A stretch of DNA of 64,000 nt. Source: Syntrophomonas sp. DTU018 (GTDB taxonomy: Bacteria > Bacillota > Syntrophomonadia > Syntrophomonadales > Syntrophomonadaceae). Positions 24,064 to 32,824 of this stretch are shown one piece after another. Position 1 is the first letter of the stretch. The number at the start of each line of letters is the position of its first letter. A program made the translations under genes and the position numbers. The stretch is taken from the NCBI GenBank assembly GCA_001513155.1, contig LFSR01000016.1:1-64000 (forward strand). The letters run 5' to 3'. The notes under the pieces were generated by a model, which was not told where the DNA came from, did not search any database, and was given only the letters and a program-made list of their open reading frames with translations.

Positions 24064-24264
24064 TTATCCCAGCGTTATGTTGGGCCCGCCAAATAAGATA
24101 GCCGCTATAATAAGCAGGCGGAAAGCCTGCCAGTAAGTAATCTCTTTTAAGCCGAACACCTGGGGCATGGTAATATTCCACAGCCACTGCAGCAGCCAGG
24201 CCACCAGGAACAGTAAACCCACCGTCAGAAATACCAGCATCATGAAATTAACAGGCAGTCCCAC
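24064..24264 (-). CDS. Small membrane protein, conserved type
   Basis: A 66-aa protein with two hydrophobic helices separated by a conserved-looking link, LWNITMPQVFGLKEITYWQAF, ending LLIIAAILFGG. The same W-N-x-x-MP...FGL..ITYWQA pattern is known from small uncharacterised membrane proteins in many bacteria. I chose the GTG at 24264, nine bases after GGGAGG; a TTG at 24270 is too close to it. The stop lies in the hairpin duplicated around the MITE-like element. Confidence 0.65.
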   Translation of the reverse strand: MGLPVNFMMLVFLTVGLLFLVAWLLQWLWNITMPQVFGLKEITYWQAFRLLIIAAILFGGPNITLG

Positions 24265-24312
24265 TTTCAATTTCCTCCCTTTATTACTACAACGCAGACA
24301 ACTACTTCTTAT

Positions 24313-24930
24313 TCACTGATTCTCCAAAGCAAAACCCCAATCCTGCCACTGCCAGGTGGTCTGCTGCTTGAAAAAAAGCTGCCGGATGGAGAATAAAGGT
24401 CCGGCAGCAGGTCCTTCGGTAACCAGCAGTTCCTGGTGCCCGTCCCTGTCGTGATCGGTTACCTGCAGGTGCAGTATGGGATATTGAATAGCCGAGGAAC
24501 ACCATACCGGTTTCATGCGGCCGGCGGTAAGCCGGTACATAAAGAGGTGATTGCTGTATTCCCTGTCTTCTTCCTTCATCCAAAAAGGTCTGGAGGTACC
24601 GAAGCTGCCTTCTTTCCAGAGTACCAGGAGCATTTCCTCTTGCCCGTCATTATCGGCATCGGCTACAGCCAGATCGGTTACCGTCCAGGCAGGATCCGAC
24701 TCCCACAGCAAGGTATTTCCAGATTTTACGGTCACCCGACCCCCAGCCAGCTGGAAGGTTTCCATCCGCCCGTCGCCATCGGTGTCAGCGGTCAGCTGTT
24801 TGGCAGGAGAAGGAGCGTTTAGATAAATAGCTGACAGCAATACCAGCACCAGCGTTACTGTCGCCAGCAGGGTGAACCCCTTTTTACTTATTGTTCTTCC
24901 TGCAGGTCCCACGGCATGATCACCCGGCAT
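24313..24930 (-). CDS. Membrane-anchored VCBS/FG-GAP-like protein
   Basis: About 205 aa. One N-terminal membrane helix (FTLLATVTLVLVLLSAIYL) is followed by a repeat region with three Ca-binding-type loops: DTDGDGRME, DADNDGQEE and DHDRDGHQE, as in FG-GAP/VCBS beta-propeller blades. It overlaps the 3' end of the DUF3160 gene. The ATG at 24930 lacks a good ribosome site. GGAAG just upstream of an ATA at 24891, whose bases overlap the upstream stop as ATAA, is the better-placed signal and would give a 192-aa protein. It is probably translated together with the DUF3160 lipoprotein. Confidence 0.7.
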   Translation of the reverse strand: MPGDHAVGPAGRTISKKGFTLLATVTLVLVLLSAIYLNAPSPAKQLTADTDGDGRMETFQLAGGRVTVKSGNTLLWESDPAWTVTDLAVADADNDGQEEMLLVLWKEGSFGTSRPFWMKEEDREYSNHLFMYRLTAGRMKPVWCSSAIQYPILHLQVTDHDRDGHQELLVTEGPAAGPLFSIRQLFFKQQTTWQWQDWGFALENQ

Positions 24931-27086
24931 TCACCGGCAGGAACGAAAAAGGACTCAGTCCAGGCCGGCCATTCAGGAATCTGCCGGTTTTCCAGCATTT
25001 CCCACCATTTCTCATCGGTCAAGCGGTCTTCCGCCGGCCAGGGAAACTCATAATAGGAGTAGACCCCGCCTTTGGCTATGCGCAGTTTTCCTTCCACGGG
25101 CACCACGGCATATATATAGTTGACATAACCGGTAGCTTCCTCCAAAACTGTGTCGGGAGGAGCGGTGGCCACATCCGCCGCCACCGGAGCCCGGTTGTTG
25201 AGCAGCAATTGGTTACGTGGGCCTTCCTGGTCCCGCAGGGCTTCCAGCCAGAAGTGCTCCAGTTGCCCGCCGAAACTGCGGATTAATTCGTATTCTTCGT
25301 CGGTAAGAGATTGCCCTTTCAGCTCTTTTTCGGAAATGGTTTTCAGCTGCAAGGCCAGTTCTTCCATGCGGGTAAGGTTTTCCGCATCCCGTTCATCAAG
25401 CAAATTGCGGGCCTGCAGACCGTCCCTGGTCAGAGCGGACAGGGCTGCCAGGCGGGCATAGAGGCGGGGGTTGGGCTCCACATAGCCCCGGTCATCAAAA
25501 TCTTCCATGCCTCCGCCCATTTCCGCATAGTTCTGCTTGGTATAGAGAAGGGTGTCATGCTTCAGCTCGGTCCAACTGCCCAGGAAAGTGTTGAGTTCTT
25601 TGCGGGCCCAGGCCTGGTTGAGCATGAAAGATGGGTACCCTTCGGGAACCTGGCGAATCAGGGACCTTAAGGTATGCATCCAGGTCCAGTACAGGTTTTG
25701 ATGCCAGGCGGCTTCCTCCAAGCCATTCAGGTACTGCTGTATTTTGTTCATATTCTCCGGGTAGCGTTCATACTCAAATTCACCCATTTCTTTGAGTATC
25801 TGTGCAGCTTCCCCTGATCCCAGGGCGGCCGGAATATCCAAGCCCTTGGGGAGCATGCGCCGTTCACCGTCCTGGTTCTCTCCCACTTCCCGGTAAATCA
25901 GGCGCTGGAATATGTCAGCATCCACAGTGTAACGCTGGCCCATGAACCGGAAACCGCTTATTTCCGCCTCCCGGTCAGGCTGTATGCTGGGATCAAATAT
26001 AGGAATGGAATTTATCGCCGGACCTTTTACCTTGTGGATTTCGGTGAGGAAAGCCTGCCACTTGGCTTCATCCTGGCTGATGTCTTTCAGGGAGAGTTTT
26101 TCTCCATAGACCTTGCGCAGCGTTTGAGCATACTCGGCAAAACCCGGATCATCACTGCGTCCGGCAAAAAAAGCGGTAGTATCATAAATGCTGGCCCAGG
26201 GAGCGAATACCTTGTCATCATGCAGGGCCATGGTTGTCAAAACCGCCGAGCGGGTTTCATCTTCATCCTTGGCTCGGAAAGTCATGCGGCCATACCACAT
26301 CATGGCTTTGAAGTAGTTTTCGAGTTCCTCGCTGAATGTATAATGACCCCGGGGAATGTACTGGGTATAGTCTTCCTTTAAGGATTCCAAGATATCCGGC
26401 TGGCGGCCCAGGCTCATTACCGGGGACACAGCCGTAGTCTGGTGGGCATTAATGAGCTTTAATTCAGCTTCTGCCACCTCTTTCACCTCAGCCGGTATTG
26501 GGGTCTGGGGATCCAATAAACAACTGCCTACTGTGAAAAAGGCCCAATTGCGCAAGGCCGCATTCTCCCAGGAACTGCCCCGCAAAAGGCGGTATTGCTC
26601 CCGGGAAAGTTCCATCATACCCTGGTTCAGCTTTTTCAATTCAGGAATCAATTTATCCCTTTCCACAGTTTTCAAAAGATGCTGGAAATAGAGGTGATAG
26701 TTGTGCAGCATGGCATCGGTGGTGACGAAATTGGGCACGCTGTCATAGCGGTTAAACTCGTAGATCAGGAAAAATTCCGTGTCCATACTGGGAATAACTA
26801 CAAAGCCGTTTTCCGCCAGGCGCTGCCGGGCTTGGTCGTTGAACTGGAAACGGCTGCTGTTTTCCACGTTGCTGAGATCAGCTTCGATCGTATAACGTGA
26901 CAGGCTGGGCTGCTCATCCACGGGTGCTTCAGTATAGGGCGCAAATTCCGCAGCCAGAGCCACCTGTTCCTTAACCATAAAATCCTCCGCCGGCTGGGAA
27001 CCGCCGCACCCCGCCGCCAGTCCTGCCAGAATAAGCAGTACCAGGCTTATGCTAACCAGCTGCTGCCTGCCCTTAAGTCTCACCAT
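24888..27086 (-). CDS. DUF3160 lipoprotein
   Basis: A 732-aa exported lipoprotein. The signal region (QQLVSISLVLLILAGLAAGC) ends in the lipobox LAAGC. The body matches DUF3160 proteins, with NFVTTDAMLHNYHLYFQHLL, LRSLIRQVPEGYPSFM and GGGMEDFDDRGYVEPNPRLYARL being recognisable blocks. The family has no assigned reaction. The ATG at 27086 follows AGGAGGAAGG; a longer frame upstream is not supported. It is followed by a calcium-loop repeat protein that overlaps its stop codon, suggesting a two-gene cell-surface unit. Confidence 0.85.
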   Translation of the reverse strand: MVRLKGRQQLVSISLVLLILAGLAAGCGGSQPAEDFMVKEQVALAAEFAPYTEAPVDEQPSLSRYTIEADLSNVENSSRFQFNDQARQRLAENGFVVIPSMDTEFFLIYEFNRYDSVPNFVTTDAMLHNYHLYFQHLLKTVERDKLIPELKKLNQGMMELSREQYRLLRGSSWENAALRNWAFFTVGSCLLDPQTPIPAEVKEVAEAELKLINAHQTTAVSPVMSLGRQPDILESLKEDYTQYIPRGHYTFSEELENYFKAMMWYGRMTFRAKDEDETRSAVLTTMALHDDKVFAPWASIYDTTAFFAGRSDDPGFAEYAQTLRKVYGEKLSLKDISQDEAKWQAFLTEIHKVKGPAINSIPIFDPSIQPDREAEISGFRFMGQRYTVDADIFQRLIYREVGENQDGERRMLPKGLDIPAALGSGEAAQILKEMGEFEYERYPENMNKIQQYLNGLEEAAWHQNLYWTWMHTLRSLIRQVPEGYPSFMLNQAWARKELNTFLGSWTELKHDTLLYTKQNYAEMGGGMEDFDDRGYVEPNPRLYARLAALSALTRDGLQARNLLDERDAENLTRMEELALQLKTISEKELKGQSLTDEEYELIRSFGGQLEHFWLEALRDQEGPRNQLLLNNRAPVAADVATAPPDTVLEEATGYVNYIYAVVPVEGKLRIAKGGVYSYYEFPWPAEDRLTDEKWWEMLENRQIPEWPAWTESFFVPAGECRVIMPWDLQEEQ

Positions 27087-27449
27087 ATTCCCCTTCCTCC
27101 TCAAACATCCTTGTAAACCTTTACGGCGGACAAGCAAAATTCTTACACACCGTGCGGGAAACATTAAAGTACTACAGTGCTTTGAAAGTGTTAACAAAGC
27201 TTACTATCATTTGGGGTTAGAGATTGCCACGGCACTTCGTGCCTCGCAATTGTCACCTGCTGCGCAGACCACGATGAATGAAAAGTCATCTTTAGTGTCA
27301 TTGCTGTGAAAATGGCTTTCATGTTAGTAAAAAGGCAACCATTGTGTCATCGCGAGCGCGTAGCGCGTGGCGATCTCATTGCATGCCATTTGGGGGACAG
27401 TCCCAAAGCCCTACAGTGCTTTTTCCGGTTTCAGGGCAAACTGCCGCCG
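27087..27449. repeat. Intergenic dispersed repeats (363 bp, no gene)
   Basis: From about 27220 to 27380 the gap holds arms of the dispersed palindromic family (GAGATTGCCACG..., TGTCATCGCGAGCGCG...GTGGCGATCTC) and the TTGCTGTGAAAATGGCTTTC unit. The rest is the upstream region of the DUF3160 gene. I see no gene. Confidence 0.7.
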
Positions 27450-28421
27450 TCAGATAAGGGAAAAGGTCCGCATCCCGGTAGCCTCGTCTCGATCAAGCCG
27501 GACCTCGCCCCGGGAGGCCATTAACAGCAGGTGGGCAGTAATCTCCCCGGTGGCCAGGAACAAGTTGAATACATCCAGTTTAGGCCCGAATAGTTCGTGG
27601 ACAATATCCCTGACCATTCTGGGTTCTTGCTTAAGACAGCTTTTTATCAGCCCCAGCCGCTCCTCATGGTGTTTGAATAACTGGTCGATGCGAGCGTCCA
27701 GGTCAGAAAAGGGTTCTCCATGCGCGGGCAGTACCTTGGCAGGGTTAAGCTGCTGGATAATTCTTAGGGAATCAAGATATTGCTGCAGGGAGTTGTCTTC
27801 AGCACTGGTGGGGAAGCGGATCACCGTGGAGATAGTGGGCAAAATCTGGTCCCCTGACAGCAATAGCTTTTCTTCCCGGTTAAAGAGGCAGACGTGAGCA
27901 TTGGTATGGCCGGTGGTGAGAACCACTTCCCAGGCGCGGTCTCCCAACACTATTGATTTTTCTTCCAGGAACTCTACCTGGGGCCAGGGTTCTGCCACCT
28001 CCGTTGCTATCCGCAGTATAGCTGTCAATTGGTCAACTTCCTCTGCCTTGATTCCCAGGCTGAGCATGCCGTCCCGGTAATACTGGGAACCGACTTGTTC
28101 CTTTTCATCGGGATAAAAAGCCCCTTTGTATTCGGTTTCTGTCATAATGACTTTGGCTCCGGTCTTTTCCTGCAGCCAGCCGGCCAGGCCCACATGGTCT
28201 ATATGACCGTGGGTAACCAAAATCTGTTTTATGTCGCTGAAATCGATGCCCAGATCCTGCAGGCCGGTTTCCCATTCTTCGCGACAGCCGGGAAAACCAG
28301 GTCCAGTATCAATTACGGTCCAGCCATCCCGCCCTTTGAGCAGATAACTGTTTATACTTCTCAAGGCCCCGGGAACAGGCAAACGCAATCTATAGATGCC
28401 GGCATGTACCTCACCAATCAT
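27450..28421 (-). CDS. Metallo-beta-lactamase-fold hydrolase
   Basis: A 323-aa member of the superfamily with HGHIDH at residues 71-76, TGHTNAHVCLF and LLSGDQILP blocks, and PAHGEPFSD as the late His. The C-terminal ~80 residues form a helical winged-helix-like tail (VRDIVHELFGPKLDVFNLFLATGEITAHLLLM), as in LACTB2-like hydrolases. GGATGGAAGA precedes the ATG. It stands alone, divergent from the agr-type kinase gene. The substrate is unknown. Confidence 0.87.
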   Translation of the reverse strand: MIGEVHAGIYRLRLPVPGALRSINSYLLKGRDGWTVIDTGPGFPGCREEWETGLQDLGIDFSDIKQILVTHGHIDHVGLAGWLQEKTGAKVIMTETEYKGAFYPDEKEQVGSQYYRDGMLSLGIKAEEVDQLTAILRIATEVAEPWPQVEFLEEKSIVLGDRAWEVVLTTGHTNAHVCLFNREEKLLLSGDQILPTISTVIRFPTSAEDNSLQQYLDSLRIIQQLNPAKVLPAHGEPFSDLDARIDQLFKHHEERLGLIKSCLKQEPRMVRDIVHELFGPKLDVFNLFLATGEITAHLLLMASRGEVRLDRDEATGMRTFSLI

Positions 28422-28601
28422 TCTTCCATCCCCATCCCTGCAAGATATGACTAGTCACATTCTACCATGCTGTGGCCATTTTAAAATATATTTCTGCCAA
28501 AATTTAAAAACAGGGAAAGTATTTGTCACCTATACCTTGCTTTTACATTCACCCGCAAAGTCTTTACCATGTTTAAGCTATTGTAGTATTATAAGGAAAA
28601 T

Positions 28602-29996
28602 ATGTCGGTACTTAGTCACACGCACTATACTATACAAATGATGCATCACAATGATGTGGTGGCGGATGCTATGGTACAAATGCCATTATATTTGGTTTTT
28701 ATACATTCATTCCCGGAAACCCTGATATTATTGTATTTAGGTTTATCTTTAATAGGAGCTAAAGTGTCCAACCGAGATATAATAACCATAGCTCTGTTCG
28801 GTGCTGTTGTCAGTTATTTTATCCGTATGCTGCCAATACCGCCCGGGTCCAATGCGTTTCTCCAGCTATTTTTACTGGCCCTTCTGCTTTTCTCAGTCTG
28901 CAAAATTCCCCTATGGCTTTCGCTGGTGAGTATCATACTGGGCTTTTTAGGCGTTGCTTTCGCCGAATTATTGTTCATTCCTCTAGTGTCAGACCTCAGC
29001 GGAGTCAGCATACAAGAGGCTTTGGCCGATCCCCTTTGGCGCTTGCTATTCCCCTTTCCCGAGTTTGTTTTTCTTGCCTTGCTGATAATCTACATCAGGC
29101 GTAAACATATTAAGCTTCTTAACATTTCCAATCCCCACCTGACAGACGTAACCAACAAAACTTACATCACATCATTGCCGATTTTAGGGTTGTCAGTAGG
29201 ATTAGTGGTTTTCGGCTTTCACTATCAGCTATCCCAAGAACAACAGCAAGTTTCTTTTGACACCATGTTGACGGCCCTGTTTCTGGTTATCGTTGTAGCA
29301 GTTTTATTATCAATAGCTTTGAGCTGGGAAACTTTTTCCCTGGCCAGGCAGGAAAAGTATGTGAAACTCCAGCAGTTTCATATAGATAACCTGCAGGAAA
29401 TGATGAAAGTCATAAAAGCCCAGCGCCATGATTTTGTCAACCACCTGCAGGTGATTTACGGGATGGTGGCTTTAGGCCAGGTGGACCAGGGCAAGAATTA
29501 CATAAACACCCTCTATAAAGACATACAGGTGACCAACAATCTGCTACGCATGGCATATCCTGAACTCAGTGCCCTTTTGATTGTAAAGTCAGGTGTGGCT
29601 ACCGCACGAAATATCTCATTGGAAATAAAGCAGAACTCCGATCTATCGTATCTTAAAGTACCGCCTATGGAATTGGTAACCGTAGTAGGAAACCTGCTTA
29701 ACAATGCCCTGGAAGCTGTGGAAGACTGTGAACCTTTCCGGCGAACTGTCAAAATAAAGTTCTTTGAAAAATCAGGACTGTATGTGATCCAGACTCAAAA
29801 TCCCGGTTATATCCCTCCTGATTTAAAAAACAAGATATTTGAGCCTGGTTTTTCCACCAAAGCAGGTGATCGGGGTATCGGACTTGCTTCAATAAAATAC
29901 CAGGTTGAAAGGCGCAACGGCATGGTCCTGGTAAGCAGTCACCCGAAATACGGCACCCGCTTTACAGTATGCTATCCAAGGAGGAAAGGAGCATGA
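28602..29996 (+). CDS. AgrC-like sensor histidine kinase
   Basis: A 464-aa membrane sensor. The N-terminal ~240 residues hold about six to seven hydrophobic helices, as in AgrC/BlpH receptors. The dimerisation helix carries QRHDFVNHLQVIYG with phospho-acceptor H276 of the SpoOB/AgrC type. The HATPase_c domain shows NLLNNALEAVE (N box), RGIGLASIKYQVERRNG (G box) and a C-terminal GTRFTVCYP. AAGGAAAAT precedes the ATG. The stop overlaps the agrB start by four bases (ATGA). It should sense the cyclic peptide encoded by the agrD-like gene at 31511 and phosphorylate the LytTR regulator at 30628. Confidence 0.88.
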   Translation: MSVLSHTHYTIQMMHHNDVVADAMVQMPLYLVFIHSFPETLILLYLGLSLIGAKVSNRDIITIALFGAVVSYFIRMLPIPPGSNAFLQLFLLALLLFSVCKIPLWLSLVSIILGFLGVAFAELLFIPLVSDLSGVSIQEALADPLWRLLFPFPEFVFLALLIIYIRRKHIKLLNISNPHLTDVTNKTYITSLPILGLSVGLVVFGFHYQLSQEQQQVSFDTMLTALFLVIVVAVLLSIALSWETFSLARQEKYVKLQQFHIDNLQEMMKVIKAQRHDFVNHLQVIYGMVALGQVDQGKNYINTLYKDIQVTNNLLRMAYPELSALLIVKSGVATARNISLEIKQNSDLSYLKVPPMELVTVVGNLLNNALEAVEDCEPFRRTVKIKFFEKSGLYVIQTQNPGYIPPDLKNKIFEPGFSTKAGDRGIGLASIKYQVERRNGMVLVSSHPKYGTRFTVCYPRRKGA

Positions 29997-30622
29997 GTAT
30001 TCACGAACTGTCGGTAAGATTTGCAGCCTACCTGGCCCGGGAACTTAACAGTGACAAGCGTCAGGAGCTGCGCATGGCCTATGGTCTGGAGGTTCTTTTA
30101 GGTGAAATTATAAAGTTTATCGTGATTATTTCCCTCTCATGGCTGCTGGGTATTTTAACTGAAGTCCTGATTATTATGTTTACTGCCGGTATCTTACGCC
30201 TGGCATCCGGCGGAGAGCACTGCAGCGCATATTATCGCTGCCTTATCGGCGGGACTGTCTGGTTTCTGGTACTGGGGTGGGCAGTACAGGTCCTCAACAC
30301 TATTCTGTCACAGTTTATAATTAATTGGGATGCAGCTATACTGTTCGCCGTATCCTTGGTAATAATCCTGAAATATGCTCCCGGTGAAACCGAGAATAAG
30401 CCTATCAGCAGTGAAGAAGAACGAAAGAAATTTAAGAACTGGTCAATATTCATTATGTTTGCCTATGGGATTATCCTGGTGATATCTGCCATTATACCTG
30501 GCTTAAACTTCTTGGTTTTGCCTATGGCAATAGGTATCATAGCCCAAGCTTTTACGGTATCACCTGCTGGCTACGATTTTATTCACTTTGTTGACAGGAT
30601 TTTGACTTTTTCGAAAGGGTAA
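29993..30622 (+). CDS. agrB: AgrB-type autoinducer-processing peptidase
   Basis: A 209-aa membrane cysteine endopeptidase that trims the C-terminus of AgrD and forms the thiolactone. The catalytic pair sits in SGGEHCSAYYRC, H76 and C83, with the spacing seen in AgrB. The usual NKPISSEEERKKFK segment appears mid-protein, and four to six membrane helices surround it. I chose the ATG at 29993 because AAGGAGGAAAGG is directly upstream; the longer frame to 29969 runs through it. It is translationally coupled to the kinase, and the LytTR gene follows after 5 bp. Confidence 0.93.
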   Translation: MSIHELSVRFAAYLARELNSDKRQELRMAYGLEVLLGEIIKFIVIISLSWLLGILTEVLIIMFTAGILRLASGGEHCSAYYRCLIGGTVWFLVLGWAVQVLNTILSQFIINWDAAILFAVSLVIILKYAPGETENKPISSEEERKKFKNWSIFIMFAYGIILVISAIIPGLNFLVLPMAIGIIAQAFTVSPAGYDFIHFVDRILTFSKG

Positions 30623-30627
30623 GGGGT

Positions 30628-31317
30628 ATGAGAATCCTTATAGTGGATGATGAGCTTGCAGCAGGTACATATCTTCAGTCCATAATTGAACAAGTACCTG
30701 GGGTTTCTACGGATATTGCCACCAGCGGCGAGGAAGCCCTGAAGAAAGCCTCAGTAAACCAGCCCCAGGCAGTATTTCTGGACATTGATATGCCGGATAT
30801 AAACGGTTTAGAATTAGCCCGCACATTAGCGAAAGAAAATGAAGACCTATCCTTTGTTTTCGCTACGGCTTATCCTGATTATGCTTTGGAAGCTTTCGAG
30901 CTGTATTCCGTCGATTATATTCTCAAGCCTTTCGATAAAGAGAGAATTAAGAAAACCGTAAAAAAGCTGCTGGACAAATCACGATACTCAGATGAGGTTC
31001 CTGTTTTGATAAAGACAGTGAAACAAAATGTATTCTTAAAGCCCAGCAATATTTTATATATTGAAGCTCAACCCAGCGGGAATATTATACAGACACTTAA
31101 CGGGATTCATATTACCAAAGAAAATATCAATGATCTTCACAGCAAGCTGCCTCAGTATTACTTCTTCCGCTGCCATAGAAGCTATGTGGTAAATCTGAAA
31201 CGCATTAAAGAAATTGTTCCTTCCGGCCGCACTTTCCAGATTGTGTTGGAAACAAGCGAAAAAATTCCCCTCAGCCGCAATCAGGAAAAAACTTTCCGCA
31301 TGAAACTGCAAAAGTAA
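30628..31317 (+). CDS. AgrA-like LytTR response regulator
   Basis: A 229-aa regulator. The receiver domain (1-118) has DDE at residues 7-9, phospho-acceptor D52 in FLDIDMPD, the Thr/Ala switch in FATAYPDYA and Lys in ILKPFDK. The LytTR DNA-binding domain (~128-229) ends FFRCHRSYVVNLKRIKEIVPSGRTF and IPLSRNQEKTF. LytTR proteins bind pairs of 9-bp direct repeats one or two turns apart; a matching pair lies at 31433-31462. GGTAAGGGGT precedes the ATG. A terminator follows at 31347. Confidence 0.93.
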   Translation: MRILIVDDELAAGTYLQSIIEQVPGVSTDIATSGEEALKKASVNQPQAVFLDIDMPDINGLELARTLAKENEDLSFVFATAYPDYALEAFELYSVDYILKPFDKERIKKTVKKLLDKSRYSDEVPVLIKTVKQNVFLKPSNILYIEAQPSGNIIQTLNGIHITKENINDLHSKLPQYYFFRCHRSYVVNLKRIKEIVPSGRTFQIVLETSEKIPLSRNQEKTFRMKLQK

Positions 31318-31346
31318 CCCTGACCTCCGATAATTTGACACTATTT

Positions 31347-31376
31347 ACCGGCTTTCGCCGGTATTTTTTAATTTTT
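31347..31376 (+). terminator. Terminator between the regulator gene and agrD
   Basis: The 7-bp stem TACCGGC / GCCGGTA with loop TTTC is followed by TTTTTTAATTTTT. It separates the kinase-agrB-regulator transcript from the agrD-like gene. Confidence 0.88.
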
Positions 31377-31432
31377 GAAATGTTTTGATATCGAATATAA
31401 CCCATTCAAGTCTGATTGTGACCCTTTCAGCT

Positions 31433-31462
31433 CAAAACTATTGTGTCTTATACCCCAACTAT
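31433..31462 (-). promoter_or_regulatory. Pair of LytTR/AgrA-type binding sites
   Basis: On the minus strand the two 9-mers read ATAGTTGGG (31462-31454) and ATAGTTTTG (31441-31433), with exactly 12 bp between them. AgrA boxes of staphylococci are ACAGTTAAG/ACAGTTAGG-like 9-mers with a 12-bp spacer, so sequence and 21-bp period both agree. The sites overlap a possible promoter (TTGTGT at 31441, TATAAA at 31463) just upstream of agrD. This is inferred by comparison with the known consensus. Confidence 0.6.
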
Positions 31463-31510
31463 TATAAATATCGGTAGGTGGTCACCATCAATTGGAAGGA
31501 GGTGGAAACG

Positions 31511-31624
31511 ATGTTCAAATTTAGATTATTAAGCACGTTATCTGCCTTTTTGCTGTTAGTAGCCAGTGCTGGAGTACAGCCTGCATGTTTGTTCCATTGG
31601 TATCAGCCCAAGCTGCCGGAGTAA
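31511..31624 (+). CDS. agrD: AgrD-like cyclic autoinducing-peptide precursor
   Basis: A 37-aa peptide with the three-part AgrD layout: an amphipathic hydrophobic leader (MFKFRLLSTLSAFLLLVASAG), a core with a single Cys (C26-L-F-H-W, giving a likely five-residue thiolactone ring CLFHW), and the tail YQPKLPE, which matches the YQPKxPE ending of clostridial AgrD peptides. GGAAGGAGGTGG precedes the ATG. It has its own leader with LytTR-type sites and a terminator at 31700-31749. Placing agrD last, away from agrB, is unusual. Ring boundaries are inferred from AIP chemistry. Confidence 0.9.
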   Translation: MFKFRLLSTLSAFLLLVASAGVQPACLFHWYQPKLPE

Positions 31625-31699
31625 TTGACAGTCGTCTATCTTTGGCATGCTAACCTTCCTGGTAGTTTAATACCAAAGCAGAAACATACCGTAAGATTT

Positions 31700-31749
31700 G
31701 GTAAGACAGCAAATAGCCTCAGGGACTTGGCCCCTGAGGCTCTCTTACC
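31700..31749 (+). terminator. Long hairpin after agrD
   Basis: A 10-bp inner stem (31715-31724 with 31732-31741) is extended by outer arms GGTAAGA / TCTTACC (31700-31706 and 31743-31749). No long T-run follows, so it may be a terminator or an RNA-stability element. Confidence 0.65.
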
Positions 31750-31789
31750 GAAAACAACATATGTCGCCTCATGCTTCATAAGTTCTTGG

Positions 31790-32074
31790 CTTCATAGTGT
31801 CGTGTCATCGCAAGCGCGCAGCGCATGGCGGTCTGCTTTGCCCCCACCCACGCTACCGTGGCCTTTCAGATTGCCATGTTCCCTGGCGGGGCCTAGCGAT
31901 GACACGGCAAATGTTTTTTCCCCCAGCAATTTTCACCAGTACAATAGATCACGATAAAGGAAAACCTTGCTGCATGTTTTAAATATGAGTATCAGCCGGG
32001 ATGCAGGAGTATCAGCCGGGCGAGGAGTCCCGGAGCGAGCCGGCTAATACTTCTGCATTCAAATGAGGCAGTCT
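31790..32074. repeat. Dispersed repeats downstream of agrD (no gene)
   Basis: About 31798-31900 carries a diverged GTGTCATCGCAAGCGCG... palindromic unit. About 31993-32052 carries the second repeat family (core GAGTCCCGGAGCGAGCCGGCTAATAC). No gene is visible. Confidence 0.7.
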
Positions 32075-32824
32075 TTATTCGTCCCCCGGTAAGATTTTTC
32101 TGAGTTCCATGGGCAGCGGGAACAGGATAGTGTTGCTGGGGGCACCGGATACTTCTTGCAAAGCCCGCAGTACCCGCAGGGTCAAGCCGCCTTTGGTAGA
32201 GGTCAGTATTTCCGAAGCCTGGGCCAGTTGTTCCGCAGCCTGGCGTTCTCCTTCCGCCTGAATTATGGCAGCGCGGCGCACTCTTTCGGCTTCCGCCTGG
32301 CGGGCAATGGCCCGGGTCATCTCCGTGGGCAGCACCACGTCTTTGATCTCCACTGCGGACACCTTTATACCCCAGTGATCAGTGGTTTCATCGACTATCC
32401 TTTGAATGGTCTGGTTAAGTTTTTCCCGTTCAGAGAGTATTTCGTCCAGTTCAGCGGTTCCTGCCACACTGCGCATGGTAGTCTGGGCCAGCTGGTTGGT
32501 AGCTTCATGGTAATTTTCCACATTTACTACCGCCTTGTCGGGCTCCACTACCCGGTAATAGAGAACCGCATTTATCTTGCAGGTAACATTATCCCGGGTA
32601 ATAACCTCCTGAGGGGGCACATCAATAACTACCGTCCGCAGGGATATCCTCACAATTCTGTCTATTATAGGTATGATGAAGATTAACCCCGGCCCGCGAT
32701 AGCCAACCAGGCGCCCCAGCCGAAAGAGGACGGCTCGTTCATACTCGGGAATAATCTTGATGGAAGCACTTAAAATCCAGAGTATCAGTACAGCGATTAC
32801 AATACTGGAAAACAGGTTTTCCAT
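32075..32824 (-). CDS. Slipin / stomatin-type SPFH protein
   Basis: A 249-aa membrane protein with one N-terminal hairpin helix (residues ~5-20), then an SPFH/band-7 domain: VLFRLGRLVGYRGPGLIFIIPIID, SLRTVVIDVPPQEVITRDNV, and a long helical C-terminal part (RAIARQAEAERVRRAAIIQAEGE). It matches slipins of the stomatin family, which pair with NfeD-type membrane proteases. The next gene upstream on the strand, 3 bp away, is exactly such an NfeD protein, so the two should form one membrane-quality-control unit. Confidence 0.93.
   Translation of the reverse strand: MENLFSSIVIAVLILWILSASIKIIPEYERAVLFRLGRLVGYRGPGLIFIIPIIDRIVRISLRTVVIDVPPQEVITRDNVTCKINAVLYYRVVEPDKAVVNVENYHEATNQLAQTTMRSVAGTAELDEILSEREKLNQTIQRIVDETTDHWGIKVSAVEIKDVVLPTEMTRAIARQAEAERVRRAAIIQAEGERQAAEQLAQASEILTSTKGGLTLRVLRALQEVSGAPSNTILFPLPMELRKILPGDE

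Follow-up and report, generated by a model that had tools for sequence, protein, structure and literature searches.

In Staphylococcus aureus, the agr genes are ordered agrBDCA and the response regulator AgrA acts on the promoters P2 and P3 through an AGTT-type motif. Another LytTR regulator is BtsR of E. coli, which acts on btsT. The AgrA sites are direct repeats upstream of the promoter, and N201 of AgrA contacts DNA, as described in the part of PMC4227749 that is cited here. In C. difficile, RgaS-RgaR acts on agrB1D1: the VirR-like regulator directly activates this agrD-bearing locus via direct repeats, which are VirR-like sites, it has a handful of direct targets including an sRNA, bases at -51 and -72 are critical in the spoZ promoter, and the kinase has no response to AgrD1 (PMC10602386).

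LytTR sites as a group consist of two repeats of 9-11 nt placed 11-13 nt apart, and the passages of PMC4847170 used here give them no common consensus. The same passages assign a single target to E. coli YpdB, whose site on yhjX, GGCATTTCAT, has a 21-bp period. In autoregulated LytTR systems (HdrR, BrsR and others) many promoters carry a pair of ACC-type repeats separated by 12 bp (period 21 bp), for example ACCTCTTAG-12 bp-ACCACTTAA, mostly about 10 bp before the -35 element, a position towards which a bias is seen, and with positive feedback (excerpts of PMC6193735).

We analysed a stretch of 64,000 nucleotides from Syntrophomonas sp. DTU018, here called the window; its own genome is denoted G000 and the genomes compared with it G001 and so on, with contigs as C numbers and loci as L numbers. 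By its predicted genes the window has a full agr-type quorum-sensing set, in which agrC-agrB-agrA are followed by a terminator and then by agrD as a separate unit:

28602-29996, plus strand: AgrC-like sensor histidine kinase, 464 aa (Pfam SPOB_a 4.9e-18, HATPase_c_5 (GHKL) 2.9e-12)
29993-30622, plus strand: AgrB peptide-processing membrane protease, 209 aa (Pfam AgrB PF04647 1.3e-41)
30628-31317, plus strand: response regulator with receiver and LytTR DNA-binding domain, 229 aa (Pfam LytTR 4e-24, Response_reg 1.6e-22)
31346-31363, plus strand: terminator-like stem-loop followed by a T-run (terminator scan; fold -12 kcal/mol, z -3.9)
31511-31624, plus strand: agrD, 37 aa, C-terminal end ...PACLFHWYQPKLPE (TIGR04223 quorum_AgrD 9.6e-10, 38.4 bits, cut-off 19)

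An AgrB protease gene, an AgrD-family precursor and an AgrC-type kinase with a LytTR regulator are thus all present in the locus, and this gene set and the hairpin are read directly from the DNA. The kinase matches the NCBIfam AgrC equivalog model at 2.3e-19, which is under the model cut-off. The preliminary description of this DNA had identified agrD correctly: the gene is the sole TIGR04223 match in the genome, while a Pfam search of the peptide gave no match. An Rfam search of 28300-32100 found nothing. The regulator and agrD are separated by 193 bp of intergenic DNA, and since the terminator-like hairpin with its T-run sits there, after agrC-agrB-agrA, agrD probably has its own promoter. 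For the window's AgrD we propose the ring peptide CLFHW, with ring boundaries that we assume by analogy to S. aureus AgrD processing. Ring residues differ between genomes (CLFHW, CLWHW, CWLHW, CWFHF, CWFYW, CWFNW, CWFSW, CWYLW).

Some further elements were seen around agrD. The leader carries GGTGGTCACC at 31477-31486; the same place in G002, G029 and G076 holds GGTGGTCACC or the perfect palindrome GGTGGCCACC, neither of which is seen there in more distant relatives. Downstream of agrD, 31697-31752 forms a strong extended hairpin (-28.9 kcal/mol, z -5.7), where the terminator scan calls a terminator on the minus strand only. The stretch 31797-31905, starting with GTGTCGTGTCATCGCAAGCGCG and ending with CTAGCGATGACACGG, resembles what we take to be a dispersed inverted-repeat element.

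The locus shares with S. aureus agr the AgrB protein, an AgrC-type kinase, an AgrD-type peptide, a LytTR regulator, direct repeats ahead of the promoter and the expected autoinduction; it differs in its gene order, C-B-A and then D as its own unit, and in having a site before agrD only. The proposed control of an agrD locus through direct repeats, with few targets, has a parallel in RgaR of C. difficile; unlike there, the genes for kinase and regulator lie next to agrB and agrD. The HdrR/BrsR-type regulators go together with membrane inhibitor proteins (in the cited part of PMC6193735), whereas the window's regulator is the two-component regulator of an agr set, and the YpdB and BtsR systems differ from it by pyruvate sensing and a different kinase family. 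We regard the locus as a fairly ordinary member of agr/LytTR biology with an unusual split layout.

Within the intergenic DNA, the preliminary description had pointed to two 9-mers at 31433-31462 on the minus strand as a LytTR box pair with AgrA spacing. A second direct repeat of 21-bp period, ACCCATTC-N13-ACCCTTTC, had been overlooked there and lies at 31400-31428. The features of the promoter region are:

31400-31407, plus strand: distal candidate LytTR half-site ACCCATTC, aligned with the sites of relatives
31421-31428, plus strand: proximal candidate LytTR half-site ACCCTTTC, 21 bp after the distal one, with the -35 TTG of the aligned promoters 12 nt further on
31433-31441, minus strand: previously reported box ATAGTTTTG, present, without conservation, touching the -35 element
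31441-31446, plus strand: -35 element TTGTGT, its TTG (31441-31443) invariant at that distance in the aligned promoters
31454-31462, minus strand: previously reported box ATAGTTGGG, present, without conservation, within the spacer between -35 and -10
31463-31468, plus strand: probable -10 element TATAAA after a 16-nt spacer, the best TATAAT match at 15-19 nt spacing

The agrD promoter was missed by a generic sigma-70 promoter scan. The pair ACCCATTC-N13-ACCCTTTC is the sole exact one in its genome. The ACCC(A/T)TTC repeat with its 21-bp period has the dimensions of two 9-11 nt repeats placed 11-13 nt apart, and its distance to the -35 element is 12 nt after the 8-mer or 11 after the 9-mer; written as 9-mers, the site reads ACCCATTCA-12 bp-ACCCTTTCA with 11 bp to TTGTGT. 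If transcription of agrD starts near 31475, as predicted here, the half-sites would be centred at about the positions of the critical spoZ bases, -51 and -72. The spacing and position of the repeat agree with published ACC-type LytTR sites.

In the first relatives read upstream of agrD, the ATAGTT pair was missing and ACCC(A/T)TTC-N13-ACCC(A/T)TTC recurred. The exact pair ACCCNTTC-N13-ACCCNTTC was found 12 times in 54 family genomes, against 3 for the reversed control. Eleven of the 12 are followed, at 113-128 bp, by the start of an agrD HMM match; the twelfth, in G002, precedes an agrD interrupted by an assembly gap. The listing for TIGR04223 gives 64 matches, spread over 39 of the 54 genomes, and the upstream DNA of 51 was examined; 21 of these were assigned by eye to the window's class, one of them at a contig end, which leaves 20 readable upstream. 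Both halves are CCNTTC with the 21-bp period in 17 of the 20, the agrDs of G013 and G001:C81 keep the period with one half altered, and G033:C49, which has its own regulator gene, shows a weak site that scores 11 of 16, has a period of 20 bp and is matched by the profile at E 0.12. A TTG follows the proximal half at 12 nt in all 20. The variant half CGCATTTC in G001 resembles the YpdB site (as given in the cited part of PMC4847170). With the classes assigned by eye, a score of at least 12 of 16 is reached by 19 of the 20 agrDs of the window's class and by none of 30 from other classes (maximum 11).

Across 19 aligned sites, one of them on contig C23 of the window's genome, each half has an invariant CC and an invariant TTC, and a TTG always follows 12 nt behind the second half; parts of the linker are near random with little information. 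The pattern CCNTTC-N9-T-N5-CCNTTC-N12-TTG has 23 matches in 15 of the 54 genomes and 1 in the reversed control. As the genomes share ancestry, none of the counts given here are independent of one another. Seventeen of the 23 stand before HMM-matched agrDs, one before the gapped agrD of G002 and one before a degenerate agrD in G062; two fall in the C23 block, one each in G000 and G001, and the other two are in G001, one of these before a hydrophobic 147-aa ORF. In 398 phylum genomes a pattern scan gave 5 matches, of which 2 fell outside the family; reversed controls gave 6. Read directly from the DNA are the repeat, its constant distance to the -35 element, its conservation before this class of agrD and its co-occurrence with the regulator. 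As a separate observation, G033, G026, G068, G062 (one copy degenerate) and G029 hold repeated agrD copies (L203, L208, L207, L280, L159/L204), with their own operators wherever the upstream DNA is readable.

The distribution of the repeat was compared with that of the regulator. Homologues of the regulator were searched in 61 genomes, its own included, and called close at E <= 2.3e-54, the next value in the family being 9.7e-35; 12 family genomes have a close homologue. A sequence-only profile was built from 20 sites, C23 being left out, and scanned over 54 genomes with stricter filters, by which weak matches are lost. In the 37 family genomes covered by both searches, a profile match at E < 0.001 occurs in 12/12 genomes with a close homologue and in 1/25 without (Fisher p 7e-9), a comparison that is partly circular, because 11 of the 12 genomes with the regulator, and also G011, supplied sites to the profile. 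The remaining one, G021, is outside the profile and has a match directly behind its own regulator gene (E 6.4e-6). Two genomes without a close homologue just miss the cut (G019, E 0.0013; G027, E 0.0024). The regulator stands directly upstream of the site in 13 of the 24 sites tested (in one case as a regulator fragment); several of the others sit at the end of a contig. In G011 the repeat precedes an agrD-like gene whose tail is altered, and the assembly, which is 95% complete, has no close regulator homologue; this locus (L181, G011:C66:1017-1240), where the operator is conserved, looks like a copy that is orphaned or in decay. Two homologues of the regulator, of 42-43% identity, are present outside the family in G056, and a profile search of locus L043 around one of them gave no site. 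Applied to 38 loci, the profile matched in L076, L077 and L078 only, apparently the G021, G018 and G033 contigs already scanned.

The regulator is one of two LytTR matches in its genome, the other LytTR response regulator being on G000:C41. Among the best 25 of 97 families it scores higher against the NCBIfam BtsR and LytR models than against AgrA, both matches being under the cut-offs, and the AgrA LytTR domain matches it weakly (E 0.024-0.026). AgrA N201 is aligned to an Arg, and the operator is ACC-type rather than AGTT-type, both differences from S. aureus.

As to the reported ATAGTT pair, the two 9-mers, the 12-bp gap, the 21-bp period and the location are exact: the minus strand from 31462 to 31433 reads ATAGTTGGG-GTATAAGACACA-ATAGTTTTG. 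A mismatch-free AWAGTTNNG-N12-AWAGTTNNG occurs once in the genome, in the window's copy alone, and the exact pair arose in 0/20,000 dinucleotide shuffles of the 193-bp region. The shorter AGTT-N17-AGTT arose on either strand in 73/20,000 such shuffles. A chance origin is therefore unlikely locally, though the pattern was drawn up only once the pair had been sighted. In the 64-kb window AGTT-N17-AGTT occurs as 1 pair; each of the 11 remaining spacings between N12 and N23 yields 0 to 6, together 20, so that the N17 spacing is not enriched. The exact pair is found 8 times in the 54 family genomes against 22 for the reversed control, and the window's copy is the one among these 8 that shares a contig with an agrD match. 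In 20 other homologous promoters, C23 and the same-genus sister included, there is no ATAGTT pair at the same columns and no AACT or AGTT pair of 21-bp period between -100 and +130; the sister G002, with a regulator 76% identical, has CAAAGCTAT and CCAATCGAG at the box positions.

Measured against a P2/P3-type operator, the pair has the AGTT-type 9-mers and the 12-bp gap, and it lies on the predicted promoter rather than upstream of -35, with box 31433-31441 overlapping the -35 TTG by its first T and the other box in the spacer; it accompanies the regulator in 1 of 21 promoters, the window's own. We rejected the AgrA-type reading on conservation, position and family-wide frequency, and the identification as an AgrA-type binding site is not supported, the regulator also being nearer to the BtsR and LytR models. 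The pair is very unlikely to be the regulator's site; it looks like a chance match with no conserved role.

Three other explanations were weighed against the one in which the regulator acts through the ACCC repeat. That the ATAGTT pair is nevertheless the AgrA-type site of this regulator is scarcely credible: the right gap, the shuffles (with a fitted pattern) and its being the sole exact match in the genome are set against its absence from 20 promoters, the excess of the reversed control and the overlap with the core promoter, and the usual place upstream is occupied by the conserved ACCC repeat. The pair might instead be a lineage-specific second site, at which the window's regulator or the other LytTR protein of the genome would dampen agrD by covering the -35 element and the spacer. 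In favour are the presence of the pair and of the other LytTR response regulator, on G000:C41; but no relative compared has the pair, the genome has no second exact copy and no link was found between the other LytTR protein and agr, and we consider this highly improbable.

The ACCC repeat could also be the operator of a different transcription factor, with the LytTR regulator acting elsewhere. This would fit the repeat in G011, where a close regulator homologue is missing, and the regulator in G056 with no site near it. It agrees poorly with the LytTR-site geometry of the repeat (as far as laid out in the cited parts of PMC4847170 and PMC6193735), with its presence in 12/12 regulator-bearing family genomes and with a regulator or fragment directly upstream in 13/24 sites, and we hold it to be improbable, if less so than the two explanations built on the ATAGTT pair. 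Action of the regulator through the ACCC repeat on the agrD promoter, giving autoinduction of agrD alone, is in our judgement quite likely.

The extent of the regulon was assessed with the same profile. Within the window it matches 31396-31444 at E 5.9e-13, a site that is itself part of the profile; in the unfiltered scan of the window the runner-up reaches E 0.16, and the scan gave no site ahead of the kinase gene. In the whole genome at E <= 0.5 it matches only 31396-31444 (E 2.4e-11) and C23 (E 9.7e-9). Allowing mismatches gave no excess in this genome, with 79 hits against 131 for reversed controls at <=3 mismatches and 6 against 9 at <=1. Contig C23 is identical (100%) over 1,584 bp to the end of contig G001:C84 of another species and is for this reason probably mis-binned; because of that its match was set aside as regulon evidence. 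The contig carries just a broken agrD relic. C23 is nevertheless counted among the 19 aligned sites and the 20 comparison promoters. Within the sensitivity of the scan, the securely assigned recognisable regulon in the window's genome would be one promoter.

The C23 block deserves a description of its own. G000:C23:1-4645 (L064, L224) has stretches 83% and 78% identical to window positions 24187-27165 and 27493-28504, which by eye hold a lipoprotein gene and an MBL-fold gene. After these stretches follow a conserved operator and the agrD relic, without agrC, agrB or agrA; the start codon of the relic is missing at the usual place and its frame is interrupted.

Additional operators were seen in relatives. 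In G001 (L276, G001:C81:12500-23500; L247, G001:C120:37192) the same operator type precedes genes other than agrD, among them a hydrophobic 147-aa ORF and ORFs with N-termini that look signal-like by eye; the latter have sites at C81:14265, after a degenerate agrD, and at C81:16903. On the minus strand of G033, a partial operator at the correct distance to its TTG (L277, G033:C49:3148) points away from a second agr set and is followed by a long leader and a 778-aa ORF. The genes behind the extra operators of G001 are candidate quorum-sensing outputs, and the regulons of relatives may be wider than that of the window. It could be that agrD is the whole direct regulon in this species, that the peptide or the agrD transcript is the sole output, acting on other cells or non-transcriptionally, and that relatives added effector promoters; we find this rather unlikely.

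For the window we propose that the phosphorylated LytTR regulator would bind ACCCATTC-N13-ACCCTTTC (31400-31428) as a pair of subunits and recruit RNA polymerase to the weak promoter TTGTGT-N16-TATAAA, by which agrD alone would go up. AgrB would then cut and cyclise the peptide and AgrC would sense it, closing the loop. We infer that the regulator binds there, that it activates and does not repress, and that the window's kinase senses the peptide. The LytTR autoinduction loop onto agrD that had been suggested earlier is thereby kept, with the ACCC(A/T)TTC repeat at 31400-31428 in place of the ATAGTT pair as its site. Its restriction to the peptide gene also fits, as within their sensitivity the scans gave no such site before agrC-agrB-agrA or another securely assigned gene of this genome.

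A literature search for the ACCC operator or for agr in Syntrophomonadaceae found nothing specific in the open-access papers among the matches listed. The location and type of the operator are corrected here; otherwise a band shift or mutation would have been aimed at the wrong bases. The result also provides a sharp signature for searches (CCNTTC twice at a 21-bp period, then TTG after 12 nt) that picks out agr feedback promoters, and possibly effector genes, among bacteria of the Syntrophomonadaceae type, which are largely uncultured. It suggests that AGTT-type sites are not obligatory for agr systems, and that agr feedback may be limited to the peptide gene.
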